The notes beneath the pieces were generated by a model that saw only the letters and a program-made list of their open reading frames with translations, did no database searches and was not told the origin of the DNA. From Diphasiastrum complanatum (taxonomy: Eukaryota; Streptophyta; Lycopodiopsida; Lycopodiales; Lycopodiaceae), in the NCBI GenBank assembly GCA_029204225.1, contig CM055110.1, forward strand, positions 1,236,675 to 1,300,674: a DNA stretch of 64,000 nucleotides. The letters run 5' to 3'. Shown here piece by piece: positions 8,470-53,879 of the stretch (position 1 is the stretch's first letter; each line of letters begins with the position of its first letter). Both the position numbers and the translations under genes were made by a program.

Positions 8470-8475
8470 ATTTTT

Positions 8476-19478: not shown

Positions 19479-19583
19479 TGTCTTTGACTCATCAAATATG
19501 ACATTTGTCTATTGTCAAGCATGTAGATCTTGCAGTATGATGAATGAATATCATATTCTACGAGGAATCCCTACTCCACCTTT

Positions 19584-20321
19584 TCATCTAGCTTCTTTCT
19601 TTTCTGATCTGAAAGGTGGGTGTATGTGACGCATCCAAAAATGCGCACGTGTCAGACTTGGTTTGTTGCCCCACCAAACCTTGTGTGGCGTGGTATGTGT
19701 AGCACTGGATCTACCTATCCTGTTCTGCAGGTAGTTGGTTGTAGCTACTGCTTCAGCCCATAAAAAATTTGATGCCTTTGAATAGGCCATCATGGATCTC
19801 GCAGCTTCCATGAGAGTCCGATTTATCCTCTCTGCCACACCATTGTGTTGTGGTGTGTAGGCTACAGTCTTCAAGTGAAGTATGCCTTTGTTGGTGCAAA
19901 ACTCTGCAAAGCATTTGGAGACGTATTCTCCTCCTCTATTTGTTCTCAACTGCTTCACCTTCTTGTCAGTCCATTTCTCAGCCCAATTCACAAACACTAT
20001 GAATTTGTCAAGGGCCTCTAACTTGTTGTGGATAAAGTACACGGCTACAAACTTGCTGAAGTCGTCAATAAAAGTGATGTAGTACTTTGAACCTCCAAAT
20101 GGTCCATAGATGTCAGAGTGTACTAGTTCTAAGAGTTCCTTCATTCTGAAAGAGTCCTTGGTGAATGGTATACATGACATCTTGCCTTTGTTACAGGCAT
20201 CGTAGAGTTTCAAGCATGCTGCATCTTTGATATTGACACCAGTGAATGCTCTGCTCCGGCTAGCGTTGTATAGAACAACTGTATTCATGTGATACTGCCT
20301 CCTGTGCCATATAATATCCAT
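19584..20321 (-). pseudogene. Copia D1 integrase
   Basis: A 245-codon stretch: GAG-pre-integrase remnant at the start, LLELVHSDIYGPF (first Asp), YITFIDDFSKF, KQLRTNRGGEYVSK, then YTPQHNGVAERINRTL (catalytic Glu). The second catalytic Asp, in RTDRGGEY of related copia integrases, is Asn here (about 19931-19949). The frame fails after PSLTRAHFW, near 19620, so the protein could not integrate DNA. Confidence 0.87.
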
Positions 20322-20574
20322 CGATTTGTTGATCTGGTGAGCTTGCTCTGAAGCTACTCAGATTCTGAGGATACAGGTTCCCCTTTCGCTTTCTTGTGGT
20401 GACAAGTTGAGTTGTTGCGGCTTCAATCACCGCAGGTATCATCTTCAAAGGTGACTGTTAGTTCTGCATCTACCATCTTGGCAACAAATATTAGGTCCTT
20501 TTGAAGAGTGGGCATGTATAGAGTGTCGTCGAGCCTTCTGTCTCTTCCTTTGGTGCTTAACCACAACGCTCCAG
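20322..20574 (-). pseudogene. Copia D1 protease and GAG-pre-integrase remnant
   Basis: On the minus strand: RRLDDTLYMPTLQKDLIFVAKMVDAEL, a typical region just after the protease active site, followed by a stop and then KRKGNLY. The upstream part is cut off at 20575 by the B-type LTR. Confidence 0.65.
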
Positions 20575-21389
20575 TGTGAAAAATGCAAAAATAAGCTTGG
20601 TAGAGGCCAAAAATCTTGTATATAGATAAACACACATGTGCGGAGCCTGTTCCCACGTGTGAAACTAGTGTACTTGTCATGTACCATAATCATATAGGAT
20701 GTACATATGATTTAATTCAAGTTCTAGTGGCTTAAAAGGCCAAAAACTAGTTTTCTAGACATATGACAAATGGCATCAATCTATTGATTGCATGAGCCAC
20801 ATCCTTTGGTTAGGTGTCATATCCCATGTGTAGAGGACAGCTCACACATGTGGAATAAGCTGAAGTAGGCAAATTTTGAGTTCTAGAAGATTTTCAAGTA
20901 GATCTCCATATAGAAGGAAGATAGACCAAAAGTGCTCAAAATAGAAGGTTTTGTCCAAGTGTTAGTTTTGCATGATGAATCATCATATGACAAAGCACCT
21001 TCACACATGTGGGATCAAAGGGATTATCAGTACCACGAGCTCCCACTTATTGTATATATAGATCCACATTTGGCCATAATCATTGTGAGACACCAATCTT
21101 GGTTTTGGAAGGAATTTTGAGTGATTCTCTCCATTTGTCTTCATTTGTTTTGATTGTTTTGAGGTTCTATCAATGTGTACTTGATTTTTAGGTTGGAGTT
21201 TCACACGTGTGAAACCCTTAAGTACACTTACCTTCAATTAATGATTGTTCTTGTTAGGATTTTGTGTCTAGAATTGATCTAGATTGATCTTAATCCGAAG
21301 TAGATTGATAGATCAAGTAATTTGACAACCAATTCCTCTTGAGGATCAGATTAGGATCCACCCTTGGTCCTTTTTGTACTTTTTACACA
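20575..21389 (+). repeat. Third B-type copia LTR
   Basis: 815 bp, TGTGAAAAATGC to TTTTTACACA, followed at 21390 by the primer-binding site TGGTATCAGAGCC. It is collinear with the copia B 5' LTR. It has its own small differences, including a shortened block around CACGTG (21204-21209). Only the 5' LTR and leader of this element remain. Confidence 0.92.
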
Positions 21390-22036
21390 TGGTATCAGAG
21401 CCAAGTACAAGATATTTTGTTGAAATTGATAGGGTTCGTCCAAATCAAAGCCAAAATTAACAGTTTTTTTGGAAACTAGTCAAATTTTGTGTAGCGAGTT
21501 GGATTTGATAGCTATCCTCAAAATTTTTGGTCCAGATCTTGTTGTGGGCTGTAGGAACCCTTTTCACACGTGAGGCCGTACAACTCCGGTTTTGGCTGAG
21601 AAATTTCAAAATTTTGTACAATTTGACTCACACACCCAATTTGAGTGATTTTTAGTGCAAAATCAAGCATTTTCTATAGAGAATCTAATCCCTTGATTAG
21701 TTCTTGGATTAGATCAGCCAAAAAAAATTAAATTTGAAGCTTGAATTAGGTGCATTAATTGATTATCTCTGATTTTTTGAGTGCATGTTGAAGTTGAGAG
21801 TGATTTTGCCAAAAATCATAGATTAAGGAGTGATATGTAAGGTGAGAGGATGAAATCCATTGTACCATCACTCTATATTTGTTCAAGAGTGATAGGGTCA
21901 AGTTTAGAAGCATCAATTTGCTAGAAAACATCCTTGGATCTGTCCTCCAAGTTAAACCTTTGAGAGTTTCTAGTGCATATAGAGCATCTATGCAAATATT
22001 TTGTAGAATTTGACATAGATTCGATTCAATTGAAAG
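21390..22036 (+). other. Primer-binding site and leader of the third B-type element
   Basis: Begins TGGTATCAGAGCCAAGTACA and parallels the copia B leader up to about 22010 with insertions and deletions. It stops before a gag ATG, where D-family RT sequence begins. A truncation or recombination junction therefore lies near 22036. Confidence 0.8.
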
Positions 22037-23167
22037 GGACGACATCCTAATACTATGCAGAAGTGAAGGCCTGATTGTAGGAGTGAAGAATGAGATATTG
22101 AATCATTTTGAGATTACAAAACTGGGAGAAGCCAGATGTTATCTTGGCTTACAGATTGACAAAGACTATGAAAAAGAAACATTGTACCTTCATCAGTCCA
22201 GATATACCCAAAAAATCCTAGAAGATTTTGGGATGGTGAATTGCAAAGGAACAAATACTCTAATGCTTGCAGGAACAATTCTGACGAATGAAGATTATTC
22301 GAAGACTGATGAGGAAAGAGAATTGATGCAACATACACCATACAGGAGGCTAATCAGATCACTAATATATCTTGCAGATAACACATGCCCTGACATTGCT
22401 TATGTCGTGTTCAAGATGAGTCAATTTAGTACGAATCCAGGCTCGACTCATTGGAAGATCGCGAAGCAAATCTTGTAGTACTTTCAACTAACGAAGGATT
22501 TTGGGTTGTGTTATTCTCGTGATGTAAGATTCCAGATGCTTTCATACAGTGATGCTAGTTGGGCATCTCTCAAGGACGACTACAAAAGTGTCTCGGGAGG
22601 ATGTACCATCGCAGCAGGAGCAGCAATTATCTGGTTCAGCAAAAAGTAGACCATCGTAGCTCAGTCATCCTGTGAAGCAGAATACATAGCAGCAGCAAAG
22701 ATGGCCAATGAAATCACTTGGCTCAAACAGTTCCTTGACGAACTAGGTGAAACGAGGAATGAGCCTCTGATTTTGTAGATGGACAATACATCCACAATAC
22801 ACCTGACAAAGGATCCTGTGTTTCAATAAAGGATGAAACACATTGCAATCAAGTACCCTTGATAAGGGATCTGATCAAAAAGAATAAAGTGCAGACTACT
22901 TTCGTTGGAACAAAAAAAATGGTTGCTGACATCTACACAAAGGCCTTAGACAAAGGTTTGTTCGAGGAACAGAGGAACAGTCTTGGAGTCATAAAGCTAC
23001 CACGCTTTGAGAGAGAGCTGAAGAAACAAAATGTTTCCGTTACCAAAGCTCTGCTAGCTCTCGACTCCCAACCTGACGAATATCTCGAAGACCTTAAAAA
23101 CAAAGATTTTGAAGATGAAATGTTCGCGAACAACAAGAGAAGGTCGAACGACGCAAAACAAAAATGA
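22037..23167 (+). pseudogene. Tnt1-like copia D3, RT C-terminal part and RNase H
   Basis: Starts at the aspartates of the RT box (DD followed by ILILC in a shifted frame). It continues LNHFEITKLGEARCYLGLQI, LHQSRYTQKILEDFGM, SLIYLADNTCPDIAYV, then RNase H GCTIAAGAAIIWF, QSSCEAEYIAAAKM, and the C terminus VADIYTKALDKGLF to a TGA at 23165-23167. Stops near 22477, 22648 and 22777 break it. A collinear D1 segment lies on the opposite strand at 17700-18480, forming a large inverted pair. Confidence 0.85.
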
Positions 23168-23527
23168 TCGAGACACCCGAAGGTTGAATACTTTCGACTC
23201 TTCATGCTCCAAAAGACTAGGAAGATCAGACAAGTGCTATGAAGTACAGTTTCTTGATATGATATGATGACGTCAGCAGAAGAATGTTAGGGCGTGCCTA
23301 ATCCACCGCTCTTGTAATCTATGATTAGTTTTAGATTGTTTAGTCTATCTAATCAAAATATTACTCTGAATATATGCAATTGCAAGATGCACCAAAATAT
23401 ATACAAATACATAGACAAAAATACAGAATAGAGAAGTTTGTTAGTGAGCGAGACATTATAATCAGGATCCACAAAGATCCAAGTAGTCCGCTAGTAAGCA
23501 AAATATTGTTCATGGTTTCTTCAAACT
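23168..23527 (+). repeat. D-family LTR fragment
   Basis: Contains TGACGTCA at 23268-23275, followed by CTAATCCACCGCTCTTGTAAT. These blocks are shared with the D-family LTRs at 17080-17290 (reverse) and 52376-52460. It ends where an unrelated RT fragment begins at about 23528. The 12-bp palindrome TGTTCGCGAACA lies just upstream at 23121-23132. Confidence 0.75.
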
Positions 23528-23866
23528 AAAGGCATAGATTATGAAGAAACATTTGCTCCTGTAGCAAAGCTTGTAACCATTAGATTGATCATTTGTATTG
23601 CTACTTTATTCAAAGGGAATCTCTATCAAATGGATGTGACAAATGCTTTCTTGAATGGCTACTTGGAGGAGGAAATATACATGTTGCAACCCGAGAGCTT
23701 CATCAAGATTGGTGAGGAGGACAAGGTTTGCCACTTAAGGAAGAGCCTATATGGCTGGAAGCAAGCACCTAGAGCTTGGTACTCTAGGTTGCATGATTTT
23801 CTCTACTCTCTTGGCTTTGTGATTAGATCTCATGAGACTTCTTTGTACATAAAATGTAAACAATAG
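23528..23866 (+). pseudogene. Copia RT fragment (B/C-like)
   Basis: [39 protein letters not shown] and KSLYGWKQAPRAWYSRLH are RT motifs nearly identical in order to element B. It ends at TAG before the YVDD box. It is an isolated piece of about 113 codons without LTRs. Confidence 0.85.
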
Positions 23867-24030
23867 AGAGCAAAATAGCTTAATCTCAAAAGTGCTATTT
23901 ACAATGCAAATACCTCTCCTTTTATGGCAAGGAGGGTCTTCCATAAGTGTCTACTAACTTATGGGACTGATCTGTTCCTAGCCTTTCTAGAACTTCTAAC
24001 TTAGGATTTAGATCCAAACACAAATTATTT

Positions 24031-25780: not shown

Positions 25781-26509
25781 GCATTCCCCTGCGTAATGTG
25801 AAGTGCAAAGGTGTGGGAGAACCTTGAAGCTCCCATATTCGTCATGATGGTGTTCCTTGTCACGATGGTGTTCGTTGTGGCTCACTCCCATATTCGTCGT
25901 GATGGTGTTGCTTCTTGAGGTACCTATAGGTGCCAGAAAGACATCTAAAGCTTTAGAATCTGCTAGCCACACAATTTGACCTATAGAATCTCAAATGTTT
26001 TTGAAATGCGCAATTTTTGCTAGGACATTAATGTTGAAAAATCTTATGCTCTTTTATCTATTCCTGACTGTGTTACTTCTTTTGGATTTCATATTCTCAA
26101 TTTGAGTTCACCTTTTAAATCAAAGTAGATCGTAAAATAAGCATCATGATATCTACATGTGTTTCTCAGAATGTAACGCTGCTGCGTTGTTGTTTATTGG
26201 TGTTGAGATTTCGAATGTAATTCTAGTTCATGATGTCAAATTAAACTCATTGACTAAATGATGCTCATGAACCGTTATTATCTACTCATGAATTGAGACT
26301 TGTTTTGCAGTAGAATAGTAGGCTACATTCCTAAGTATTTGTCTTTTTTTTTGTTTTTTTTTTCTTAAGCTATATAAAAATGGAGAAGTCTAACTGTTTA
26401 TACATGCTTCAGGTGTTGCAGTCTTCATCAAGCTAACTCACATCTTGTGCTGTCAGATTCGATTTCTTGTATCTTCTGAAAAACGAACTATTGCTTCCAA
26501 GTGATTTAG
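25781..26509. other. No clear gene; possible upstream part of the recombinase gene
   Basis: AT-rich sequence. TATATAAA at about 26371 is followed by ATG at 26380 and an 11-codon open piece ending at AG/GT (26412). Its phase would match the recombinase exon at 26510, but the TATA-to-ATG spacing is too short for a normal start, so the true upstream exon is undecided. Confidence 0.3.
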
Positions 26510-27966
26510 GTTATTGCATGTTCTGAAAAATGTACCATTTCATCTGATGCTGAAAAAAATCGGGATGTAGTAGGTGAAACTATAGCTGCTTCTAAACATG
26601 GTCTCAGATTTCGCACAGTTGATCCTAAGGAGATTACAAATGTCATGTCTGGTGGTATTCGTAAGAGTATTCATGCTGAAAATTGGGCTCGATCAGCATT
26701 TGATTCATGGCGGAAGCATTGTAGTTTCCCTACTGATAAAAGTATTGAAGATCTTAGTGAAAGTTCTGATCTTAAAGGGTTTGTCGATCTTCTTGTTTTG
26801 TTCATGTTACAAGTTCAAAAGAAAGATGGCAAAATGTATCCTCCTGAGAGGTAATGATTTGTTTATGTTTTTGCTTTAGTTGTTTGTTGGATAATGACCT
26901 TATGTATGCATTTTGTTGTTGTTGTTTTTGCCTGTTTGTTGTTTTCTAACATTCTCATAATAACTATTCTTATTTTTGCTGATCACAGCATAAGTAGCAT
27001 GTTTCGTGCAATTGGAAGGATTATTCAATATCGTCAAGCAAAAAAGGGTTATTGTTGGGGTGTTCGTTATTGCAAAGCCAAGGTTGCTACCGAGGAAGCT
27101 ATAAGAAGATCTGGTTGTATTGGCTTGGGTAGACGTCGAAAAAGGGTTGACGTATTATTTGTTGCTGATGAGAGGAAGATGCTTGCTGAACCACACCTAC
27201 AGAATACTGTTGCAGATGGCTGTAATATGAGATTTGCCCATTTTTGTACGTGTAATTTCTTTGGTAGGGGTGCAAAGGAGCTTCAAGACTTGAAAGACAT
27301 TGATTTTTTCGTACATGAAGATGGATATGGAGAATATGTTAGGTAGTTGTTTTTATGATTCATGTGAAATATTATATTAATGAGACTTGTTTATTGTTGT
27401 GTACAGGATCTCACATGGTAACTTGGATTTGTATTTTGTTTTTAGGTTTGCAATAGTTGTTTCCAAAAATTACAAGTTGGATATTACACATTGTGCTCCT
27501 GAAAAAAGACGACAACTTGTAAAATGTTATAATAGTGATGTTGTGGAGACTTACAAAGCTTTTGATTGGGCATTGTCCTGTTTGGAATGATGATGAGTCG
27601 CCACCTCACTCTTTGTTTTTAATGCCAATAAAAAATCCTATTGATAAGAATATAGTACGAAATGTAGTTTATTTGATTAATTTCCTTTATTTTCTATTCT
27701 TAGTTGCTGTTATGTTCATTATGAGTTTTGGCATCCTCTTATTTGTAGTAGCATTCAATATTTATGCAATGGTATAGCAGAAATGCTTTTGGAAAATCTA
27801 CTTTATCGAAGTGGGTGAAGTCCATGTTATTTCAAACTGGAGTGGTGGCCGCATTTAGCAATAAATCTGGACGTGTTGCTGGTATAAATAGGTTGAATTA
27901 TGTTGGAGTTCCTGCAGAATGCGGTATGAAGATGACTGGTCATCATGACGATCGTTCATATATGAA
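26510..27966 (+). pseudogene. Crypton/DUF3504-like tyrosine recombinase, 5' exons
   Basis: A spliced gene. Exons: 26510-26850, 26989-27342, 27407 (or 27444)-27654 and 27752-27966, with GT-AG introns that keep phase. Exon 1 has an N-terminal SAM-like core-binding region (AENWARSAFDSWRKHC). KKDGKMYPPE joins across the intron to SISSMFRAIGRIIQY, the layout seen in KIAA1958/ZMYM-type DUF3504 proteins. Exon 2 has FFGRGAKELQDLKDIDF (likely catalytic Arg I). Exon 3 has CPV and LFLMPIKNP. Exon 4 has WYSRNAFGKSTL, then SNKSGRVAGINRL (box II, with Lys where His is usual) and MTGHHDDRSYM. A one-base frameshift near 27565 separates the FDW and GHCPV frames, so this copy is probably broken. Assignment is by motif reading only. 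Confidence 0.62.
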
Positions 27967-28477
27967 GTAATTTTTCCTGAGAGTAATTTGTTGTGTGCTT
28001 TTATATCGTTGTGCACTTTTATGCTGTTAAGCTTTCTTTGTAAATTTTGTTATTTCTTTGTGAAATTTAGGTATGTTGGGCATTAGTGGGTCCCGCCACT
28101 AAAGTACTACTGGCTAAGCTTACCAAGTGGCCCCACCACAGTACACTGTACATGTAGAGCAATAAGTGCGAGGGCACTGGCTTCCTGTGTGTATAAGCCC
28201 AACCCAATGAGCACGCAATTTGGTTTTGTAGAACTTGTAGAATCAGGAATAATTGACTAGGGGCCTAAAACTCTAAAATGACATTAGAGGCCCTAAGTCA
28301 AGTTGTTAATAAAAAAGCTAAAAGGGCCCAAATTAGAACTCACATGAATCATGTAAGTGCCCTTGTGCTTTCTTAAGGAACCATTAGACTCATTTTGTGT
28401 TAGTTTAGGAGGCTTGGATTAGGATCCTTGCCATTGTAATTAACCAATAGGAGAAAGGGGCAAGGGCCTTCCCCATC

Positions 28478-28486
28478 CATAAAAAG
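28478..28486 (+). promoter_or_regulatory. Predicted TATA box of the gypsy LTR
   Basis: CATAAAAAG, followed by the conserved ACCCTTTGTACCATATTTCCA. The same block is in the 3' LTR (36153-36161) and in weaker form in LTRs G2, G3 and G4. It would place the transcript start upstream of the CT tract. Confidence 0.5.
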
Positions 28487-28562
28487 ACACCCTTTGTACC
28501 ATATTTCCATATTCAATAGGAGAAGGAGATTATGCCCAAATGAGATTTGAACATCCTTGCTT

Positions 28563-28565
<3 letters not shown>

Positions 28566-28646
<81 letters not shown>
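28566..28646. repeat. (CT)n microsatellite in the gypsy 1 5' LTR
   Basis: About 40 CT repeats. The 3' LTR has the counterpart at 36237-36328, interrupted by TTTCTCTAT, so the two LTRs have diverged in this tract. Confidence 0.97.
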
Positions 28647-28649
<3 letters not shown>

Positions 28650-28914
28650 GCATTTTGTATTTGCTTTCCATTTGCTTCTTCTCTCTACTTGCATGTTGTT
28701 AATGATTTCTAAGAGAGTAGAGATGATAGGATGTAAGCACCTCCCCCATTGTAATCTATTATTCCTTCTCATGCTTGTGGTTAAAGTAGGGTGGATAGTT
28801 AGATGTGGTTAATCTAGGTGTGGTTAGAGTAGGATTTGCAAGCTAACTTCGCAAGGGAAGCATTATTCCCTTGGGAACGAATCTATGCGTGACAGTTGAC
28901 CCAAGGCCGCTACA

Positions 28915-29726
28915 ATTTTTTGGTGCCGTTGCCAGGGAATAGATTAGCATTTTCTTGCTTTTTAGCTTGCATGCATTCATCTTGTGATTTTTGCTTGTGG
29001 AATGGATGTTTGGGGGGTACTTTAGTGTGGAGTAGAGGTTAGATTTGTTGTTTTTTTCATGATTTGTTGCCTGTATGATCTGTGGAGGGAGATTTAGAGG
29101 TGAGAAACATCATATCCCAACACCCTACCCCTTCCATAAATCCTAAAAATCAGAAAAATCAGAAAAAACCATGTAGTTTTAACAAATTGTCCAGAAAAGA
29201 GCCAAAAAAACACCTATCAGACCTCATAACTTTTTGATCTGCTCAAACCAACTTTTGCCCACCTAGTAGTACGTTCTGCCACATCATCAGTACCTACAAC
29301 TAGTTAGGCGAAGGTTATTTCCCAGCCAGTTTGCCAAAATTGCCAAGAAAAATGAAAAAACCTTTGTAAAAAAATGTCCAGAATCTCACAGTAGTCCAAA
29401 ACACCCCAAACAACTTTCGCCCAGCTTCGTTTTCAACTTCAGAGCCATCTTGGAGGTCGGCGAAGGTTAATACTAAGTGTACGATCTCTGGCGAAGGTTC
29501 TTAGACACCAAATATAGTATTGCCATCAGAACCCTCGCCAACTTCAATATCTGCAAAAGTAGTTACTGTAAACCTTCGCTAGTTTACCAGTAGCTACTTT
29601 TTCATGTTTTCTAGCTTCAGTGAAGTCGGCGAAGGTTAATATTGAGAATAAGTGGTCAAGCGAACGTTTCCCAGTACTCAAAGAAAAATTTAAGTCCTTT
29701 AAACCTTCGCCAACCTTCATAAACCA
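28915..29726 (+). other. Primer-binding site and leader of gypsy 1, with GCGAAGGTT motifs
   Basis: TGGTGCCGTTGCCAGGGA at 28921 is a primer-binding site typical of plant gypsy elements. The leader is non-coding and carries the motif GCGAAGGTT, or its complement, about seven times between 29310 and 29715. It joins directly to post-zinc-knuckle sequence at about 29727, so gag proper is deleted. Confidence 0.8.
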
Positions 29727-31652
29727 GTGTTAGCTGTTACGCGAGCACAAAAGTGCAAGGAGGTAGCTCCATCATCACCGCACTCTGTATCAGTGCCAAC
29801 TGATCAACCTTCAACATTAGGAAGAGCGAGATTGCCTTATCCGAATGTAAAGGATGAACAAAAACGATACCAGAAGGTCAAGCATTGGATACAAGAAGCA
29901 CAAGCGGAGGAAGCTGCTCAAGCTGCACATCAACCGACAGCTCCTCAAGACACTACACCAAAAAGAGATCAACAAGCGAATGCACCGCAAGGTTCACCAC
30001 CAAATCAGATGTGAACGTGCGACTACACCATCGGGAAGAACCATTCCATATGGTAGAACCTGAAGGTCCAAGGACGGAACTACTGACGAGCATCTTATCC
30101 AGCAGAATGAACATCTCTTTTGGAGAGTTCCTTCAACTTTCACCTCAAGCAAAGGGTGTCTTGTCAGATTGGTTGAACATTGAATCAGACATACCTTCCA
30201 AAGAACCATTATTTTGCGCCAATTTCAAAGAAGCCAACAATGTTTTGAATGTGGGAGTGGCTTGGGAGAGTGAGCAGCACAATATAACTCTTCCTATCAA
30301 GCACAAACTCTTCGGAGAAGAAGCTGCTGTTGTAGATGGAGGATCGGGTGTCAACCTTATCTCCACTACTTTGTACAAGAAATGGAATCTACAAGGCTTG
30401 AAAGCTGCCAAGTTCACCATCAAACTGGCTGATCAATCATGTGTGCGGCCAAAGGGGATTGTAGAAGACATTCCAGTCAAGATAGCAGGGGTACAATTTG
30501 TTATTACATTTGTGGTGATGGACATTCCTGAAATACCCACTGCCTATCGAGTTTTGTTGGGAAGACCCTGGTTGCGAATTGCACAAGTAGTTCATGATTG
30601 GGGGACCGGCAAAATCACATTTGAGAACAGAGAGAGGCCAGTAAAAGTGGATCCCTCCACATGGGTGGTGAAGCCTGTACCACCCAAAGCTGATGACACT
30701 TCTTCCACAACGGACCATAGCATTGATCGTCCGAAAGCTTCAATGGGTGTTGTGGACGGATGCATTGGCAACTATTGATTGTATGGCTGGGCATACATGT
30801 CATCCAGATCCAGATTCAGATTCCAGTGAATCACCACCGAGAGGATTCACCCTTGACACGCCTATCTCATATGGGGTGAACATGCTAAACGTAGCATGGC
30901 TGTCACCGGAACCTATCGAAGATGATTTAGTTCCTTGGAAACATGCATTGTCCTATGACGAGGAAGCTGAGCTGACAGATGAGCAAATTCTACATCACAT
31001 GGATTCTACGCGTTATGGAGTTCAACGAATACTAGCTCAACCGCCTCGTAAATCTCAACATGCTAAAGTCTCCAAGATGCCACCACTGAAAGCACCTATA
31101 CCAAAGAAAAATCAACAAAAGCAAAGATACAATCAGGTGATCGAGTGGAGCGATTTACCCGAAGAGGCTATAGCAACAGTGGATGAAGACATTCAGAACC
31201 ATGTGGCGAATGTTAAAGAACCTCAACAAAAGATAACAAGCAAAGAAGTAGCAACAACGAACAACAATATACAAGGCAAGAAGAAAGTTGCTAAATCGCA
31301 TGCTCAAGGGTCATCCGACCAAGCTTCGACATCAGCTTCAGGAATGTCATAAGCAATGCACAAGATATCACTCACGAATTGTGCTAAGATCAACCTTTTG
31401 AAGGAAGAAATGAGTAAGGCACCAGTCCATGATGTGCCAGAAAACTTCAAGAGTTATACCTTGGATGACATGGTGATCATGATGCCAAAAGCGCAACGAG
31501 AACCTGATGCAAATCAGAAAAAAGAAGAGCAAGTCTATGAGGGACCGGCTCGCACTCAATCGATGAATCTAGCAGAGCCAGGAGATGAAGACAAAATTGT
31601 TCATGTGGGGGCACAACTCACGCCCTAACAATTCATCCAACTGCAGAAGTTA
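29727..31652 (+). pseudogene. Gypsy 1 gag remnant, protease and linker
   Basis: Starts LAVTRAQKCKEVAPSS, which in gypsy 2 lies about 45 codons after the zinc knuckle. In a second frame the retropepsin follows: NITLPIKHKLFGEEA, VVDGGSGVNLIST (catalytic Asp, about 30330) and YRVLLGRPWLRIAQ (about 30546). The pre-RT linker has INVAWLSPEPIE-like and DEQILHHMDS segments, and near 31440 FKSYTLDDMVIMM. Frame changes occur near 29990 and 30700, and stops at about 31350 and 31626. Confidence 0.85.
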
Positions 31653-33134
31653 TTGATGGAGTATAAAGACCGCTTTGCGTGGTCTTACAAAGATTTAAAA
31701 GGAATTACATCGTCTGTAGTCCAACACACCGTACGTTTGGTCGAAGGAACAACGCCAAAGGTGAGCCGATATAACCGCTGCAACCCAAACTACACCGAGC
31801 TAATCAAGCAAGAGTTGCTCGATGCCGATTTCATTTATGAAATCGAGCACACAAAATGGGTGTCACCCATAGTCATTGTTCCCAAGAAGAATGGCAAAAT
31901 GCGGATTTGTGTCAATATGAAGGCACTTAATGCTACAACGCGGAAGGATCACTTTCCCTTACCGTTCATAGAAAGCGTCCTGGATCGACTAGCTGGAGCG
32001 GAAGCCTATAGTTTTCTGGATGGCTTTAGTGGCTACAACCAAGTGAAGATTGCACCGGAGGATCAACACAAGACTGCATTTGCTACTGAATGGGGTACAT
32101 ATGCCCCCAAGGTCATGCCATTTGGTCTTTGTAATGCCCCTAGCTCTTTTCAGCGCGTCATGCAAAAGGCATTCAAGGAGCATTTACAGAAGTTTCTAGA
32201 GATCTTCTTGGATGATCTTTGCGTGCACGGATCTAATGATGAACACTTATCTCAGCTAGAGAAAGTGCTTATACAATGCCGCATATTTCAAATATCATTG
32301 AACCCAGAGAAATGCCAATTTTGGGTCACGCATGGTCTGATCCTAGGCCATATTGTATCTAGACATGAGATCGCCACTGATCCGTCTAAGATACGTATTA
32401 TCATGGATCTTCCACCCCCTGGAACGATTCGTGGAGTCTATGTATTTATGGGACATGCCAATTACTACCAAATCTTCATTCTATTCTTTGTGGATTTGGC
32501 ACGTCCTATCTACAAGTTGAGAATTGATCCACATTGGACAGAGGAAGCCCTACAAGCTTTCCAAAAGCTGAAGGAAGCACTTATATATGCACCAATCTTA
32601 CGGCCTCCCAATTGGACAATTGAGTTTCATGTGCATACCAACGCATCAAAGTATGCTATAGGAGCAGTTTTGACCCAGCCAGACGAGTACAAGAAAGACT
32701 TTCCTATTTGCTTCGCCAGCCGACAACTCAACGATGCTGAAATCAACTATTCAACGACTGAGCGAGAAGCCTTGGCGATGATATTTGTGGTCAAGAAATT
32801 TCACCATTATCTTATGGCAACTCATTTTGCATTCTACACTGATCATCAACCTTTGCTCTACCTAGTCAACAAAACTTGCAACACAGGGAGAATCACTAGA
32901 TGGTTACTCTTGTTGCTAGAGTTTGATTTTCGAATAGTGGTACGCAAAGGCAAGCAACATTATATGGCTGATCATGTATCTCGAATCAGATCAACACAGA
33001 AGGATCCCCAGCCTGATGATGAGTTACCGGATGATGATTTATTTTATGTGGATGCTGTACCCAATTGGGCCGCAAACATAGTTGAGTATTTGATGAACGA
33101 CCAATCAGATTGGTCACTATCCAAGGCGCAATAG
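31653..33134 (+). pseudogene. Gypsy 1 reverse transcriptase and RNase H
   Basis: 493 open codons. RT: WVSPIVIVPKKNGKMRICV (about 31858), FLDGFSGYNQVKIAPEDQ (about 32014), MPFGLCNAPSSFQRVM, and the active-site box FLDDLCVHG (about 32205), where both Asp are present. RNase H: FHVHTNASKYAIGAVL (about 32628), STTEREALAMIF, FYTDHQPLLYLV and ADHVSRI. The first RNase H Asp (HTDA in gypsy 2) is Asn at 32640-32642, which should abolish RNase H. A TAG at 33132 ends the frame before integrase. Confidence 0.88.
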
Positions 33135-35583
33135 CGGAAACTTGTACTTAAAGCTCGTCCATATCAGCTAATTGCCGGCCAACTATATCAAAGAGGGACG
33201 AATAATATCATTTGTCGTTGTATCCTGTCCCATGAGACAAGTCAGATAATGTCTCTCTCGCATGAAGCAATGGGAGGCGGACACTTCGCAGCAAATGTAA
33301 TAGTACGCAAGATTCTACAATCCGACTGTTGATGGCCAACAATGCACAAGGATACTGAGGCATTTTGTAGCGCAGGCATCCCAAAGGGAGCCGGGAACCA
33401 CGACTTAGCTTCCCAGCCTTCAACTCTTGCCCTCCGAACCCACTTGACATACAAGCAGCCAACTCGCCAACAACGATCAGACTTAACCAACTTGAAGTTC
33501 CAAAAACCAACATTGAGATCCAACCTGGCGCCATGCCAAATCGGGGGTCCCGACGTGGGTGACTTCCCTCCAAGCAAGCCGCCCGACATACATCAAACTT
33601 AACCAACTCGAAGCTTCGTTACAAACGAGTAACATCCAATCCAAGCAAGCGGTATGACTTACATCAGACTTAACCAACTGAAAGCTTCGTCACGAGCGCT
33701 GGAAGCCAACCTGGCGCCACGCCAGACTGGACAGCCATAAACAGGTAACATCCACCCAAGCAAGCCATCCAACTCAGCCGACAGGTTAGAGCCCATTCCC
33801 CAAGAGCTTAACCCATTCACGTTCATGCCAGGAATACTCAGAACCACAAGCCGCGACAGATATGGAAACAACCAGTTCCTGGACCAAATGGTCCCGACAG
33901 CATACCGCTGGCGCCACGGACCGAATGGTCCCGACGGCATACCGCTGGCGTCCCGGGATACGACCCTCAGCTATGTGCCAAGTTAAAAATTTTGAAAGCG
34001 GCCTTACAACTGGCGCTTTTACCGAACACTGAAACCCAGAAGGTAATCAGAGTCAGTTTGAGGAAAATACCACTTTATTGACAAATTTGAGAAGGTTACA
34101 TTTCAAGTGTGTGACCGACCCTAGTCTCCGGGGCGCTAGCATGCCAAGGCGAGAGCCATGACAACATTCCAGCAAGGGAGGCTGAGACTTGGTTGGAGCT
34201 CGCCCTGAGTCGCAACCCGCACTCCCCTATAGTATTGGTGTGATTCGGCACCCCCCCTCATACCAAGCACTCTACCCAAGCTGGTAAAGCACGTTTTTCT
34301 CTCTCTAGGATTTTCTCTTTCTAGAAAGTCATTTTCTCTCTCTAGATTTTATTGATCCCCAGGCTTCCTTTAATCATGCCTAGATCGTGTGAGGTGATTG
34401 CACATCGATCTGAGCTCTCTGGACTTCGCTAGAACCGATCAAAGATTTTCAGCCATAGGAACTTGGCGCCGGCTGGATTCTGGTCACAGTGGCGCCGGGA
34501 GCGGCGCCGGCGCCCATTGGCGCCGGGAGCAGCAGGGGCGCTGCTGGCGCCGGGGACATAGCTGGCGCCGATGGCGCTGCAAGTAAAGCTTGTAAAGGTA
34601 GCTTTACAACACATTTATCAAGCAATGTGATGTATGTCAGAGAGCGCGCAGACCAACGAAGGTAAATTATGAGCCGTTACATCCTGTATTGGATCAAGCG
34701 CCATTTGAGAAGTGGGGACTTGATTACATCGGCCCTATTCACCCAGCCACTCGCAGTACCCAAGCCCAATATATTATCGTGGCTACAGATTATCTCACAA
34801 AGTGGGTTGAAGCCAAAGCAGTGCGCGTAGCAGATGCTAGGTCCACCGCGAAGTTCCTTTACGAAAATTGTACTCTTCGGATCTCCAGTGGAGATAGTAA
34901 GCGATCGGGGATCTCTCTTTGTCAACGAGACCATCAAGGTCTTATTAGAAGAGTTCTTTGTGATCCATTGTTTCAGCACACCTTACTACCCAAGAGGCAA
35001 TGGCCAAGCCGAATCTTCTAATAAGATTCTGTGCAACATTTTGACAAAGACCGTGGAAGCAAGCAGATCAGATTGGGAGCATAAGCTACACGCTGCTTTG
35101 TGGGCTTTCAGAACTGCATACAAAGGCAGCACCGAACAAACTCCATTCCAACTGGTGTATGGCCAAGATGCAGTCATGCCGGTGGAATTTCTCGTTCCAT
35201 CTCTTTGCATTGCCACAGTGCAACAATTGGATGGTACAAGATCGCTACACCTTCATCACGAAGCGCTACACAAGTTGTGCGAAACACGCTTGTTAGCGGT
35301 CCATGCTCTTGCTGCAGAGAAAGCACGTCGCAAGGCCTGGCATGATAGTCGTTTTCACAAGAAAGATCTTCAAAAAGGAGATTTGGTCCTCATGTACAAG
35401 ACAAAGGCGATGATCAAAGGAAAGCTGAAATTCATTGGTGAAGGCCCTTATCACATCACCGACATCTTATCGCAAGGGGCAGTGACTTTAGAAACAATGG
35501 ATGGGACACCGTTTGCTACGCCCATCAACGGTAGTCGGTTACGCAAGTACTGGTCGTCACCAGCCTTCCCAAACACTTCTTGA
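33135..35583 (+). pseudogene. Gypsy 1 integrase, split by an insertion
   Basis: The N-terminal zinc domain begins YQLIAGQLYQRG and runs to a TGA at about 33331 and KDTEAF at 33365. It resumes at 34612 with KQCDVCQRARRPTK-type sequence in a shifted frame. Core: WGLDYIGPIHPATRS (first Asp, about 34717), VSDRGSLFVN (second Asp, about 34900) and YYPRGNGQAESSNKIL (Glu, about 34985), with a frameshift near 34870. The C-terminal part has WAFRTAYKGSTEQTPFQLVY and GKLKFIGEGPYHI, ending PNTS and TGA at 35581. Confidence 0.87.
33366..34611 (+). mobile_element. 1246-bp LTR-like insertion in the gypsy 1 integrase
   Basis: Starts TGTAGCGCAGG, ends GCTTTACAACA, and is flanked by CATTT (33361-33365 and 34612-34616). 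Comparison with gypsy 2 at 63780-63810 shows that the integrase resumes exactly after it. It is more GC-rich than its surroundings. It contains internal tandem repeats around AACCAACT/GAAGCTTCGT and ACCGAATGGTCCCGAC, and a cluster of GGCGCC palindromes at 34460-34575. No coding domain is seen. It is a solo LTR or small LTR element of a family not otherwise present here. Confidence 0.75.
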
Positions 35584-35745
35584 AGAGTTTAGGATAGGCT
35601 CCTCAATATCAAATAAAGTCTCAGGTTTTATGTAAGCGATCTTTATCCACGCTTTTCCTGACGCACTCCATCATCCGCAATAAACGTGTCGACAACCTTC
35701 TTCCACAACAAGCACAGGCAGGTGTCGTGGGACCGTCACCTATTT

Positions 35746-35758
35746 AGGTGGGGGATAC
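35746..35758 (+). other. Polypurine tract of gypsy 1
   Basis: AGGTGGGGGATAC directly before the 3' LTR. Confidence 0.75.
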
Positions 35759-36234
35759 TATTGGGCACTTAGTGGGTCCCGCCACTAAAGTACTACTGGC
35801 TAAGCTTACCAAGTGGCCCCACCACAGTACAATGTACATGTAGAGCAATAAGTGCGAGGGCACTGGCTTCCTGCATGTATAAGCCCAACCCAATGAGCAC
35901 GCAATTTGGTTTTGTAGAACTTGTAGAATTAGGAATAAGTGACTAGGGGCCTAAAACTCTAAAATGACATTAGAGGCCCTAAGTCAAGTTGTTAATAAAT
36001 GGCCCAAATTAGAACTCACATGAATCATGTGAGTGCCCTTGTGCTTTCTTAAAGAACCATTAGATTCATTTTGTGTTAGTTTAGGAGGCTTGGATTAGGA
36101 TCCTTGCCATTGTAATTAACCATTAAAGAAAGGGGCAAGGGCCTTCCCCATCCATAAAAAGGCACCCTTTGTACCATATTTCCATGTTCAATAGGAGAAG
36201 GAGATTATGCCCAAATGAGATTTGAACATCCTTG

Positions 36235-36307
<73 letters not shown>

Positions 36308-36598
36308 ATCTCTCTCTCTCTCTCTCTCACGTTTTTGCATTTTGTATTTGCTTTCCATTTGCTTCTTCTCTCTACTTGCATGTTGTTAATGATTTCTAAG
36401 AGAGTAGAGAGGATAGGATGTAAGCACCTCCCCCATTGTAATCTATTATTCCTTTTCATGCTTGTGGTTAAAGTAGGGTGGATAGTTAGATGTGGTTAAT
36501 CTAGGTGTGGTTAGAGTAGGATTTGCAAGACTTCGCAAGGGAAGCACTATTCCCTTGGGAACGAATCTATGCATGACAGGTGAACCAAGGCCGCTACA
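35759..36598 (+). repeat. 3' LTR of gypsy 1
   Basis: 840 bp, collinear with the 5' LTR. Its first dinucleotide is TA instead of TG. The CT tract is at 36237-36328. It ends CCGCTACA, followed by the target copy AGGTA. Confidence 0.92.
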
Positions 36599-36600
36599 AG

Positions 36601-37066
36601 GTATGATCGAGATAATATGGGCATTAAAGAGCGTGCAATGCAGCGCATCATTTGTGGTGATGAAAATAAATTTGAAGATGCATTGGCTGCCGAAGTGGAT
36701 AAATATAACAAGGTATAGTTAAAGGAAAAATCTGTTGCAGAAAAGCCTGATGTTCCATCTTCATCAAATGACGTTTTCAAGGAAGTCAGGCATCCTCTTG
36801 CGGATGTTACTCAACGTGCGAGCAATTTTAATGTTGATGATGACGATGAGTTTCGGTGTAACCCATTCATCATGAAGGCTGTTGATGATGCTTTTGAGAA
36901 ATATGAGGAGAATATGAAGTCACGTTTACTATGTCCACCTACAGTTAATAGCACTCACGTGAGTGTGGGACATAATTTTTCAAACATTAGTAATTGTCAT
37001 ATCACTTTCAATGTTTCAGATGCCAATGTGGCAGCGGGAATTTTAAAGGATTTGAGCAAAAAATAG
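36601..37066 (+). pseudogene. Crypton/DUF3504-like tyrosine recombinase, 3' exon
   Basis: Continues the gene after the gypsy insertion. The original intron (27967-28070) ends TTTAG and the exon begins GTATGATCGAG, giving KYDRDNMGIKERA with the likely catalytic Tyr next to MTGHHDD. An in-frame TAG at 36716-36718 follows DKYNKV. The same frame then stays open for 116 codons to TAG at 37064-37066, through an acidic stretch (NVDDDDEF) and HNFSNISNCHITFNV. A similar NCxxxxN-type tail occurs in animal DUF3504 proteins. The long open frame suggests that the stop is recent or read through. Confidence 0.6.
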
Positions 37067-38578: not shown

Positions 38579-39475
38579 TAGAGATTAACATCAAGTCAAG
38601 CTGTAAGTGAGTGTAATTACTCTCGGATCATCACCAGCTTTTGGTTCTGTCTCTCCGTCCGTCTGCAGTGATTGATCCATCGTTCTTTGTAAGCGTCGTT
38701 GACAGTTGTGCAGCATTGTAAAAGAGTAGTCTGTTTCTTTGAGACAACAAAAGTGTATTGTTGTTGGAGTAGCTTGGTGGTCCTTGAGCAACGGCAGGGG
38801 CTACCAGCACTAACGGAGGTGAGATGGTGGATCTGAAACTTTTTACGAAGCTTTAATCAGAATTTTGTTCGTGGAACAAAGCTTCCGGTAATAGGAAACT
38901 TCAATATGCTATGTTTTTTATTTTAGTGGATTTACAAAAGTGTTTTCCATTTGATGGTTTGAGATCTGCATTTTAGGTTTTTTGGATTTGCTCTTCCCAG
39001 TATCTGCTAAACAAAAAGTCCATCATTGCATCATTCTTTTAGCACTTGCACGGATTTTCTTAAATCTGCTAAGTTTCTTCTGTATAAAAGCTACTTCTCG
39101 TTCATTATATAGTGCTCGTCCTAGTTTATTAAAAATTTACCGTTCATAGGCAGTTCTCAAGCATGATTGAAGCCGCGTACAATGCTCTCAGTCGTGATGA
39201 ATCTTCCTTAATGCTTTCAATCTCTCTGGTATAGACAGTCTGACGTTACTACCTAAATTTCTTGGTCATATTCAGTTCTGAAGGACGATTGAAGGCATGC
39301 TACATCCTCTTACTTATGGTGGATTTCCAATTAGCACTTTCATTTTTTTTTTTCTGATATCAAGTGTCAATCTCAGCAAATATACCATACATTATTGGAT
39401 AGGTTCGACACCAGCTGTCAGAAGTTGGTATATCATCTCAGAGCAGTTAAAGATCCAATACGAGCTACAAATGCT

Positions 39476-42400
39476 ATGTCGCAGGTAGCTGGCGCCGCTT
39501 CTGGCAAAAGCGCTGGGGATAGCATGCGTTCTGGCTTTGGAGCAAACAGCAAAAGTCTAGTTCAGACGGAAAACATCCGACCAGCACAAAGCAAAAACTT
39601 GGCTCCAGCTAATGTTATGCGACAGACCAGAGCTGCATCAAAACGAGCTGCAATGGATGATGCATCACGGACGACTAGTACAGCGCCTAATCCTCATGCT
39701 AAGAAGCGGCCTGCTTTGGCAAGCTTGTCTAACAATGTAAATGTACCCGTGGCTCACGTCCGTCCGTCAATGTCTAAGACAACGGTAAGCTATTCTCCCT
39801 TTTTCGCTTTGTCTTTTGTATGTCCTCATTTGAGCTCGTTTGTCCTCGTTTGTGCGGCTGATTGGAGTCAGAACTCCTGACTTCAGTGGAGGGAATGAAA
39901 GCTTCCTGAGGAAACCTCCCTTAAGAGGGCTATTCATCCTTTTTGGATGCTTGTTGACGTCCTTTTCTTTTTACCAGTAAAATCATCTCTCAGAATTGCA
40001 CTAGTTATCGGAATTGAAAATTGAATGTGTTGCATTTATCATGAGCTTAGATTATCTACTGTTGCACTTGCAAGAAGGCTGAAAATAATACAACGGCTAT
40101 AAAAAATAAAGCACGTACTTCAGCTCAAGCTCGAGATGTGGAGACACAGATGGCTGGTCTGTCAGTGGTGCAGCAGAAGGGGGCAGCATCGCAGATTAAG
40201 CCGGAAGTGGTAGACAATCCACATGATTCTAATGTTATGGTTGTGGATAACTATGAGAATGTACCACTAGAAGCTGCAGCGCTTCCTCAGCCAGGGAAGC
40301 AATCTTGGGATGAAAATCTGGCCACTGCTAGCAACTCTCTTTCACCTGTTTCCAATAAATTTCCACAACAGCCAACTGCCTTACAGACTCTGAAGCAATC
40401 TCGGGATGAAAATCTGGCCACGGCTAGCAACTCTGTTCCACCTGTTTCCAATAAATTGCCACAACAGCCAACTGCTGTACAGGTTCTATTTTCAGCAAAC
40501 TTGCACTGGCCTATTAATCAAGGTTAGCTACTTCTACCATGTGGTAAAGGATTTGTTCAACAGTTTACCATGACTCATGATTTTATCTTATAAGAGGATA
40601 AAACTCTGCAAAGTTTTTAATTCCTTAATATCACTTTGCCATTCCATTCAAAGCAGAAATCAGGCAGCTGTTCTGCTAACAGCCTGCCTGCTGATTCTTC
40701 CTTTTTTGCATACTTTAACAGTGACCTTAAAATTTTCAAGAAAAGTGTATGAGTATTGAAAGTGTGATGTTTCCAGTTTTATTGGCATATTACGAACATT
40801 CACATCGTCAAGAGATTTCTAGAAGCATAAATGAACTTAATAAATTGTTGAGAAGCTTCAAAAGAAGATTACAGCCTATAAAATTTCAATCATAAGAAGG
40901 GGTTTGCTTTGCTATCCTTTGTCTTGAGAAATGATTATCTAATGATTTGTCCACTAGGTTCAACTGTTGTTCAATTTCAATCTACAACTGTTTAACCTAG
41001 TGAAAAGTTCATCTGAAAATTCATTGTTTGATACAGCAAAGGATCAACTTGAAGTTAATATTCCCAATGTTATTATGTTGTCAAGATTCCATCTGTTTTA
41101 GTCTGTTTATTAGTCATTGAATTGGCTTGTTGGCTCAGACAAAAAATGTACTTGCCTTCTGCACAATCTACTGTGAATTGCATTGCCACTAGCACATTGG
41201 CTTATGAGACCTTTGGTTGTAGTTTTCTTGCTGGGCAACAAGAGTCCTTCCGAATGCAGCTTTACGAACATTGACGTACATAAAGATCCTCAAATGTGTA
41301 GCATGTATGCTACTGATATATATCAACATCTTCGTATTGCAGAGGTATTGCCTACCATCCAATAAAAGCTGGAATTTTTTTTCCTGCTTCAAAAGTTTGA
41401 TAAGTTTCTGAATTTGCACTTTGTAGGGTTTTTTTCCCTTTTAGAAAGCGTCTCAGATATTAATATGAAGCTCTTCTTTGAAGAGAAACTAAGATTCTTC
41501 TTTTTATTGTGTTGAATATCAACTTGATATGAGTGCAACCTGAATGGAATTCTCCAGCTCAAAAGGCGGCCTGTTACAAATTTTATGGAGGTGATCCAGC
41601 ATGAGATCAATGCCAGTATGCGAGGGATTCTTGTTGACTGGCTTGTCGAGGTACATTTACTTCAGTCTCTTCTAGACTATTGCAACCAGGGTGACTGTCA
41701 TTGTCTTTTTGAATGCCCAAAACGGCTTTCTGAAAATAAACGTCCTACTTAAATAATTCTTCAAAAGAATAAATTGCTTATCTAGCAAGTGACTTCTGTT
41801 GTAGTTGAAAGTGCTGGCTGCTGAATGCGTGCTTTTACAGGTAGCAGAGGAGTACAAACTGGTGCCAGATACACTCTATCTTACAATTTCATATATCGAC
41901 CGCTTTTTATCTACCAATTCTGTCAACCGTCAGCGTCTGCAGCTTCTAGGTGTCTCTTGCATGCTTATTGCTGCGTAAGTAATCGGTGCTGGTGATCTTT
42001 ACATCATACTTACAGTTGCTTTCAGAGTGCAACAGCAAATTTTGTTGGAGCAACTTATTTGTTTTGATCATAATGTTGGCTTCTGTGCAGAAAGTATGAG
42101 GAGATTTGTGCTCCGCAAGTTGAGGAGTTTTGCTACATCACCGATAACACCTATTCCCGAGAAGAGGTAAGATGATATCTTCTAGCCTTTTCTTGCTATC
42201 ATCCTTGAGTTGCTGCTAGGAAAATTTCATCAGCACTCTACTTCCTCTTTTTGATCACATTAGATTATTTAGAGTTTTATGGTCAGTTTTAATTTCTGTA
42301 GTTTTACCCGAGAGACTCCAAGAGTTGTACTCTGAATTCAGCACAAAGCAGCATGTACATGAATAGTCCAAGCTTGAGATTTTTGCTGATTGACTTTGAA

Positions 42401-43337
42401 AAAGTATTCCACGTGCAGGTGTTGGAAATGGAGCGACGGGTATTGAATAACCTACATTTTGAGCTAACAACTCCTACAACAAAAACATTTCTGCGGTAAT
42501 TTGATACTCATTTTCCACTCTGGCCAAATCCTCATATTTTTTGCAATTCAAATTGTTTGGTTACAGTTTATTCTCCATCATTTCAAATATTTTCTGTCTA
42601 ACCTAGTTCATGTGTTGTTTCAGGCGGTTCATTCGAGCAGCCCAGACTGCTTACAAGGTTTTTGACCATTTTCTTTTTTCTATTCAACTTCTCAAACATT
42701 GAGATCGTTTTCACAAAACTCTTGATCTACATAAGGATTTTAATGTATTGTGTGTATTTCTTGCAACATTGTTACAATCTTGCAGATTGCGTCCCTGCAA
42801 CTTGAATTTCTGGGCAACTATTTGACAGAGTTAACTCTTGTAGAATATAACTTCCTTCAATACTTACCGTCAATGGTTGCTGCTTCTGCTGTGTTTCTGG
42901 CAAAACTTACTCTCGATAAAGACACACTTCCTTGGGTAAGTGGATCAATATACTTCAGTTATTCCTGTTTTAAGTAGCTACTAATATTAAATGTTCGTGC
43001 AGGATATAATGTGACTTATTTTTGTTGTTTTTTCAGAACATTACTTTGCAGCATTATACTGGGTATCGACCATCTGAATTGAAGGAGTGTGTCAAAGCTT
43101 TGTTTGATTTGCAGTGCAACACCAAAAACTGCACTCTGCCTGCAATACGAGAAAAATACAGGCAACACAAGGTGATCTCATTTTAGTATTAACGTCTGTT
43201 CTTAAACTAATCAGGAGTTTACTAGTTAGTAGTCATACTAATTGCTATTGCTGCTTTGGTTGCAGTTTAAATGTGTGGCAAACTTGAAGCCTTCCACCAG
43301 TCTACCCTCTGAATATTTTCTGGATCTTGGAATTTGA
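39476..43337 (+). CDS. A1-type cyclin (CYCA1-like), 11 exons
   Basis: Cell-cycle regulator that would bind a CDK in S/G2/M or meiosis. Exons: 39476-39784, 40075-40522, 41223-41344, 41558-41650, 41841-41974, 42091-42166, 42419-42495, 42624-42657, 42786-42935, 43037-43171 and 43266-43337. All introns are GT-AG and the phases join to 549 codons plus stop. A perfect destruction box RPALASLSN is at residues 78-86. DPQMCSMYATDIYQHL precedes the cyclin N box, which has MRGILVDWLVEV (from 314) and DRFLS...RQRLQLLGVSCMLIAAKYEE. RRVLNNLHFELTTPT leads into the C box. The C terminus is EYFLDLGI. The gene looks intact. The start is the first ATG in frame; a 5' UTR intron is likely but unresolved. The exon 2/3 boundaries are the least certain. 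Confidence 0.9.
40297..40488 (+). repeat. 96-bp in-frame tandem duplication in cyclin exon 2
   Basis: Units 40297-40392 and 40393-40488 encode two 32-residue repeats sharing DENLATASNS, PPVSNK or SPVSNK, and PQQPTA. They lie in the unstructured N-terminal region between destruction box and cyclin fold. Confidence 0.92.
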
Positions 43338-49222: not shown

Positions 49223-50026
49223 TGGTATCAGAGCCAAGTACAGGAGCATAAGCCATTGATTTAATGCAAATCCATTTTTAGCAAGTTTTGGTGCTAAAAA
49301 CTAGTATTGAGAGGGCAAGCTAGAATCTTGATTTTGGTAAGGAGATTTGATCCCAAACTTGGTAGGGGTCCAAATCCGTACTATCCACATGTGTGGGCAC
49401 CTCTGAACCTGCATTTAATGCATGGTATTCATTTGATTCAAAAAAATTCAATTTGTGAGCTGTTGGTGCAATTTTTGGTGGAGATCCTAGGATAATCTAC
49501 CAAGATTATTTGCCATTGATTAGATTTGAATTTGTTTCATGGAATCTAATTAATCTAGGCTGAGTTCAAGTCCTATTAAGGTTAAAAACAGGTCTTGAAA
49601 GTACACCAAGAAGGAAGAAAGAGATTCAGTCAGTTTATTGTCCAAAAATAGCCAAAATTGGCAAGATTTGATTGTAAGTAGATTTCACATCATCTTATCT
49701 TCATTCCAACTTTATGAGGGAGTGATAGAACTGAGATTATAAGTCCATTTGTTGGATTAGAAATCTAATTTGAGTGAAACACTACAAGAGAGAGACCTTA
49801 GTGAGTTTCTAGAGACAATCAAATCCATTTCTTGGCAAGATTTGTTTGAAAGTAGTTTTTACTTCATCTTATCTTCATTTCAGCTTTGTGAGGGAGTGAT
49901 AGAACTGTGATTACAAGTCCATTTGTTGGATTAGAAATCAAATTTGAGTGAAACACTGCAAGTGTGAGACCTTGTGAGTTTCAAGTCAATCAAATCTATT
50001 TCTTGTTTGTAGAAGTCACTAGTAAG
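49223..50026 (+). other. Primer-binding site and leader of copia C, with a tandem duplication
   Basis: TGGTATCAGAGCC at 49223-49235. A roughly 174-bp tandem duplication (49660-49833 and 49834-50007) starts GGCAAGATTTG and includes GAGGGAGTGATAGAACTG and GTCCATTTGTTGGATTAGAA. It ends just upstream of the gag ATG, much like the 493-bp duplication of copia B. Confidence 0.85.
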
Positions 50027-53833: not shown

Positions 53834-53879
53834 ACCGGCAGTGTGCCGAGGGTTCGACACTACTTTAGGCCGTGGGTCC

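Follow-up and report, generated by a model that had tools for sequence, protein, structure and literature searches.

What is a spliced gene for a tyrosine recombinase doing in the genome of a clubmoss? The question is raised by a stretch of 64,000 nucleotides from Diphasiastrum complanatum (assembly GCA_029204225.1, contig CM055110.1, positions 1,236,675 to 1,300,674 of the forward strand; hereafter the window, with positions counted from its first letter), in which an initial annotation had described five exons whose order follows that of animal DUF3504 proteins, themselves derived from Crypton recombinases. Our analysis indicates that the gene probably belongs to a dead DNA transposon of the tyrosine-recombinase kind, one copy in a Crypton-like family of land plants in which related lineages have hairpin-arm ends. 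The annotation had assumed the setting of a flowering plant. This was wrong: the host is a lycopod, and the protein records of D. complanatum hold members of the family.

The recombinase gene of the window and its decay

The features at the locus are listed below, with the evidence for each in brackets; L020 is a paralogue, and P0002 is a predicted protein of 551 residues from the liverwort Riccia sorocarpa.

26290..26545, + strand: non-coding upstream stretch common to the window and L020 (84% identity)
26510..26850, + strand: exon 1 in its recognised extent, with the N-terminal core-binding part (translation; alignment to P0002 and relatives)
26989..27342, + strand: exon 2, remainder of the core-binding part and beginning of the catalytic part (translation; genome matches; alignment of joined copies)
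27446..27654, + strand: exon 3, from the SKNYK lysine region through LFLMP (translation; alignment of joined copies; comparison with L020)
27770..27966, + strand: exon 4, WYSRNAFG...NKSGR...TGH...SYMK (comparison with L020, lineage B and P0002)
28069..28073 (left) and 36599-36603 (right), + strand: target-site duplication AGGTA (sequence)
28074..36598, + strand: Ty3/gypsy-type long terminal repeat (LTR) retrotransposon of 8.5 kb at the start of exon 5 (LTR repeats; reading frames judged gypsy-type by eye)
36601..37066, + strand: exon 5 in its present form, including the C-terminal tail HNFSNISNCHITFNVSDAN (alignment of joined copies; L020; P0002)

When the five exons were joined, the resulting peptide aligned with P0002 at 40% identity over 392 columns (E = 3e-98), without a break across the four joins. 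Because the alignment runs through all of these joins, the spliced gene is, as far as sequence comparison can tell, real. The similarity is also more than chance, since it combines this match with at least 82 matches in the plant's own genome, described below. The donor and acceptor sites of introns 1 and 2 are the same in L020, including the exon 1 donor AG|GTAATG. The true 5' start of exon 1 was not found, and the counterpart of the shared upstream stretch sits about 1 kb farther from the coding part in L020. Thus, the coding segments, their order and their one-frame joins were borne out by the unbroken alignment and by the intron sites of the paralogue. The claim that all joins follow the GT-AG rule fared less well: the frame is continuous, but intron 3 has no proper acceptor in the window copy, where coding resumes at 27770 (WYSRNAFG) after CAA and L020 has AAG. 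Comparison with L020 and lineage B also led us to reject an alternative reading of exon 4 (HSIFMQ...). The present exon 5 starts within or beside the codon for the tyrosine of K-Y-D-R-D, the candidate catalytic residue. Its C-terminal tail (36917-37066) lies outside the DUF3504 match and resembles, by eye, the tails of the proteins P0012, P0013 and P0015 (relatives ..NLSNCTIQLTVPDAS..).

The lost acceptor is one of several lesions. Exon 2 carries a 33-bp deletion near 27060 as compared to L020, exon 3 a frameshift near 27560, and exon 5 an in-frame TAG at 36716-36718; the last two had been announced by the annotation, which placed the frameshift near 27565. Furthermore, the gypsy-type element, whose LTRs are 97.1% identical (803/827 aligned positions), is absent from L020. 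What had been counted as the fourth intron is therefore mostly this retrotransposon and no part of the recombinase gene, while the exon joins themselves stand. Because of the frameshift, the stop codon, the deletion, the lost acceptor and the insertion in exon 5, the window copy is dead, and the proposal that it might be domesticated does not hold for a gene broken in at least five ways.

A recombinase family in the clubmoss and other land plants

The exon 2 peptide gave at least 82 matches in the D. complanatum genome at E <= 0.001, with 150 of 158 candidates scored. Two small contigs (C3147 and C4601), which are counted within the 82, repeat the window locus at 99-100%; from their sequence they look like alternative haplotype copies and hence not like separate insertions. 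We joined the exons of ten copies, some of them partial and one mixing two copies, and these ten rows fell into lineages A1 (the window and L019), A2 (L023 and L024) and B (six rows). The A1 copies are dispersed in the genome. A1 and B have an intron at a common position, immediately ahead of the W[FY] with which exon 4 begins, while the A2 copy L023 reads through it.

Used as a lone query in protein searches, the window protein found no homologues. The alignment of the ten joined rows found 19 proteins, including records from D. complanatum, Riccia and Physcomitrium; four of the 19 are O6H91 records of D. complanatum, and P0001 is letter-identical to one frame of the copy L016. Because the Riccia protein is already labelled 'DUF3504 domain-containing' in UniRef, the similarity itself had not gone unseen. 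In a tree of 19 rows, which covers land-plant and unassigned rows only and was midpoint-rooted for drawing, with no outgroup, the Physcomitrium and Riccia rows grouped with A2 and were separate from A1, and B took in four proteins whose sources are lgn, jgi and ena. Judging by this grouping, the lineages look older than the clubmoss, or else they moved between hosts. Among prokaryote and viral contigs, there were pattern matches but no confirmed relative. In one gene model of the moss Physcomitrium patens (P0014), a coilin N-terminal domain (1.5e-12) is combined with the N-terminal portion of this recombinase family, a possible fusion or model error.

The link of the window copy to DUF3504 is drawn through its relatives, as its own match is weak. 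Alone, it had no Pfam match at E <= 5. Nine of the ten joined rows matched the DUF3504 profile at E <= 1, the best with E = 4.2e-6, a row for which the E value but no bit score is among those given. In the profile search that had been proposed as a check, the relatives matched below the Pfam cut-off, and for the window copy alone the outcome came close to the one that the annotation had named as refuting its reading. The predicted structure of a Riccia relative has a tyrosine-recombinase fold over the core-binding and catalytic domains, with Cre and QRICH1 as the nearest structures, and the family is accordingly predicted by this model to share that fold; sequence searches against solved structures returned nothing relevant. 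The first catalytic Arg (in NFFGRG) is present in 10/10 rows, the candidate catalytic tyrosine is kept in all eight rows that reach its position, and GH is kept in 8/8 rows.

Hairpin-arm ends and the insertion site

Elements with two ends were found in the related lineages. The recombinase gene lies between such ends in the B1 copies L011, L017, L027 and L031 and in the A2 copies L015 and L024. The elements measure about 2.1-4 kb (3500 and 3992 bp for A2) and have one recognised gene, the spliced recombinase. Four B1 loci on different chromosomes (L009, L011, L017 and L027) are 89-97% identical over 1.7-2.4 kb around the gene and share nothing beyond it, except that L009 and L011 have a further 458-bp piece in common. 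With one B1 locus as a DNA query, at least 91 pieces matched (40 of 152 candidates scored), many of which stop at query positions 2497-2499 on the right-hand side.

The left end consists of a G+C-rich hairpin followed by an arm of 12-20 bp, and the right end is an inverted copy of the arm. The B1 ends read GTA-ATAGATAACGGCC...GGCCGTTATCT-TACGTTATTAGCAC on the left and GTGCTAATAAC-GT on the right, those of A2 GGGGAAGGCCC...GGGCCTTCCCC-GG-CGTAAAGCAGTATC and GATAGTGCTTTAC. Although these sequences are unrelated, both lineages follow the same plan of hairpin, arm, gene and inverted arm. The motif CGTA[AT]TAGATAACGG, which constrains only the 5' stem strand, had 67 exact genome matches as compared to 5 for the reversed pattern. 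Under a strict rule, the complementary strand and the arm were present in 26 of 38 left ends, which include the near-duplicates L013/L014 and L011/L035, whereas only 28 of 2496 tiles of 200 nt passed the rule, true ends being present in some of these tiles. Hairpin length is 34-134 nt, and mononucleotide shuffles give a median z of -6.4 (range -14.4 to 0.1); when dinucleotides are shuffled instead, z is -11.2 and -11.8 for two long hairpins and -6.2 for a short B-type one. Since the inner stems vary between families and still pair, the pairing goes beyond what sequence conservation alone would give. By eye, the hairpin tip lies in opposite orientations between copies (TTCCC versus GGGAA), as seen for the left ends of L015 and L024 and for L042/L044/L055 versus L037/L053; the tips appear as if flipped, and cruciform or hairpin processing could be involved. 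Around the window copy, L019, L020 and L023, the search for inverted arms gave only short matches, which we take for chance.

The insertion site was read from an abundant non-autonomous family with similar ends. The sequence before L036 and L049 had been considered as a target repeat and was rejected, as it is the right end of this family. Its pattern, GGACACCTGAGCACAAGRCATTACGTA, matched 814 times with as many as 3 mismatches allowed, and the control had no match; because all ten matches examined end at ATTACG and have 8 different flanks, we assign it to a right end. The left end of the family follows the hairpin-arm plan at L056, by eye, and is shorter and without the arm at L057. The latter copy is inserted in a copia-type element, and its joined flanks matched uninterrupted copies elsewhere. 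The empty sites (six examined, three distinct sequences) read CTTTT-GTA-G[CT]TTC and the occupied site CTTTT-GT-[element]-AC-GTA-GCTTC, so that both junctions share only GT with the target. Thus, this family inserted precisely at GT. The B1-type right-end pattern had 79 matches as compared to 1 in the control. In the 20 examined, G was present in 19, a count biased by G being part of the pattern, and was followed by T in 15, with no preference at further positions. At 36 left ends, A occupied position -2 in 33 and C position -1 in 29, the latter partly forced by the pattern. The shared core is 2 bp (GT), with GTA in some copies.

With a right end set before a left end, the order that they would have in a circle, the arms and the hairpin folded into one stem in all five pairs (three of lineage B1, two of A2), and a few bases stayed unpaired at the junction or close to it. 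We set the limits of these ends ourselves, and for L029 the two ends belong to adjacent copies. In the genome, a left end directly follows a right end at L086, and the flanks preceding L011, L018 and L052 resemble right ends. At L029 (C3:42682800-42690250), three B1 recombinase elements stand head to tail with GA-microsatellite spacers, for which the microsatellite targeting of CryptonV, as cited in PMC8869645, offers a comparison.

These features suggest how the elements may move. The recombinase would bind the two arms, its tyrosine would cleave beside the base of the hairpin, and the element would be excised as a circle whose junction forms one long interrupted palindrome. Integration would take place at a short core (GT, often after AA[CT]) and leave the target otherwise unchanged. 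The many hairpin-ended elements that lack the gene would probably be mobilised in trans. No ends of the recombinase element itself are recognisable in the window, and the gypsy-type insertion that split exon 5 came later.

A more specific version, which we put forward tentatively by analogy, is that in this land-plant Crypton lineage the attachment site works as a folded hairpin, as integron attC sites do. Recognition of structure is proposed because the long palindrome of the joined ends is imperfect, leaves bases unpaired at the crossover and has a tip that is free to vary. The recombinase may then recognise structure over sequence and exchange a single strand at the 2-bp core, and a preference for AA[CT]|GT targets, mimicked by the right end itself, could lead to a cassette-like stringing of elements end to end.

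Weighing the explanations and comparison with known systems

The plant Crypton lineage envisaged by the initial annotation is supported by the fold predicted for the Riccia relative, by the DUF3504 matches and by the bounded, dispersed A2 and B1 elements that carry the gene. A number of observations count against our interpretation of the locus as a Crypton-like transposon. None of the ten joined rows is a fully intact copy (no genome-wide search was made), no element ends were found for the window copy and its A1 lineage, and the non-autonomous family that provided the empty sites is tied to the recombinase elements only by the end plan and the hairpin resemblance. The window row matches DUF3504 weakly even after the correction of exon 4 (E = 0.061, 13.8 bits), and the Pfam cut-off for this family (PF12012; 29.7 bits) was not reached by the scores obtained (26.5, 26.1, 19.9, 13.8 and 13.6). 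The fold model has a mean pLDDT (predicted local distance difference test) of 58, with a root-mean-square deviation of 6.8-8.3 for the Cre rows and 15.3 for the QRICH1 row. Because the His of the HxxR box is replaced by Lys in 9/9 rows and its Arg is retained in only 6/9, activity is not assured. Twelve of the 38 left ends fail the strict hairpin rule, several of them with a hairpin visible by eye, and the L015 hairpin, of lineage A2, stands out only moderately (z -2.6, 3/200 shuffles as good). Finally, the tree is confined to land-plant and unassigned rows.

Some of these points, together with others, would suit a host gene family, in which a domesticated land-plant Crypton recombinase (compare animal ZMYM, QRICH1 and KIAA1958) became multicopy by chance and the window holds a pseudogene. 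Spliced genes with a conserved exon order, the Physcomitrium gene models, one of them with a coilin N terminus, a moss protein (P0008) that lacks the C-terminal catalytic part, and the missing ends of lineage A1 all fit this explanation. We nevertheless consider it unlikely: the A2 and B1 copies are dispersed with sharp element ends, the A1 copies are dispersed too, many copies are broken, and the candidate catalytic tyrosine persists in every row that reaches it. Alternatively, the hairpin-ended elements might depend on a different enzyme for their movement, such as a Helitron2-like Rep/helicase, with the recombinase a passenger in some of them. Helitron2 ends, described in PMC3627910 as asymmetric inverted repeats with hairpins, come near to the plan found here, and of the 67 left-end motif matches only 6 have a recombinase match within about 2 kb (by eye), one of the six being on a small contig and possibly duplicating another. 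However, two lineages with unrelated end sequences bound the same gene with the same plan, and insertion at GT without duplication beyond the core fits a tyrosine recombinase; we consider a passenger role improbable, no search aimed at Rep/helicase genes having been made.

We give practically no credence to a contaminating fungal or animal contig, or to chance and over-reading of a weak similarity. The window protein alone indeed has no significant Pfam match, and single-sequence protein searches were empty. These explanations are refuted, in our view, by the matches in the plant's own genome, by the relatives in D. complanatum, Riccia and Physcomitrium, by the identity to the Riccia protein, and by the position of the locus within a 49-Mb contig, beside a cyclin gene and copia- and gypsy-type elements. 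The cyclin gene has many exons and lies downstream at 39335-44100 on the + strand; its joined pieces match Cyclin_N (5.9e-28) and Cyclin_C (1.3e-29), and we take it to be a plant A-type cyclin. Copia-type (Ty1) reading frames were recognised by eye on both strands at 688-11249, 17849-24000 and 49952-55251, and a further gypsy-type element, also by eye, at 60011-63517.

As for the preferred reading of a Crypton-like transposon, the hosts listed in Table 1 of Kojima and Jurka 2011 (PMC3212892; groups F, S, A and I) are fungi, animals, oomycetes and a diatom, and the tree of that paper also holds a Chlamydomonas sequence. Like Cryptons, the plant elements are DNA transposons with a tyrosine recombinase, have no duplication beyond a short shared core, are distributed patchily among eukaryotes and have abundant non-autonomous derivatives. 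They differ in their land-plant hosts, in the hairpin and inverted arms at their ends, and in the 2-bp core. The same paper gives terminal direct repeats of 6 bp for most F elements, of 5 or 6 bp for S, and none for animal elements. Because the shared core here is GT, or GTA in some copies, we do not file the family under groups F or S; it is classed as Crypton-like, with the 5-6 bp direct repeats of these two groups absent. The published animal DUF3504 genes covered there have all lost the catalytic tyrosine and the second Arg. In contrast to the animal proteins (KIAA1958, QRICH1, ZMYM2/3/4, WOC and KCTD1), the plant rows have retained a tyrosine where the catalytic one is expected and, in many cases, the second Arg, and their genes sit in mobile, multicopy elements.

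The attC sites of integrons are, according to PMC8946536, imperfect palindromes of weak conservation that contain unpaired and extrahelical bases and vary in their terminal structure. The ends studied here resemble them in their low sequence conservation and, by computed folding potential, in the imperfect palindrome, the unpaired bases near the crossover and the variable apical structure. As with IntI, the enzyme is a tyrosine recombinase, and elements can be joined end to end (L086). The likeness to Helitron2 (PMC3627910) lies in inverted arms that are placed asymmetrically, the first at the terminus and the second next to a terminal hairpin. Helitron2, however, encodes a Rep/helicase, whereas the sole gene recognised here is a tyrosine recombinase, no search aimed at a Rep/helicase having been made. 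Among the open-access titles and abstract openings listed, with subscription papers and Repbase Reports mostly outside their scope, we found no land-plant Crypton and no hairpin-ended Crypton.

A clubmoss lineage that is multicopy and spliced, and whose relatives occur in a liverwort and a moss, would extend Cryptons to land plants, and this distribution points either to their early presence in the history of land plants or to movement between lineages. With a candidate catalytic tyrosine and defined ends, the family may offer a system for learning how DUF3504-type recombinases functioned before their domestication in animals. Should the hairpin prove to be what the enzyme recognises, recombination at folded sites would extend beyond bacterial integrons.

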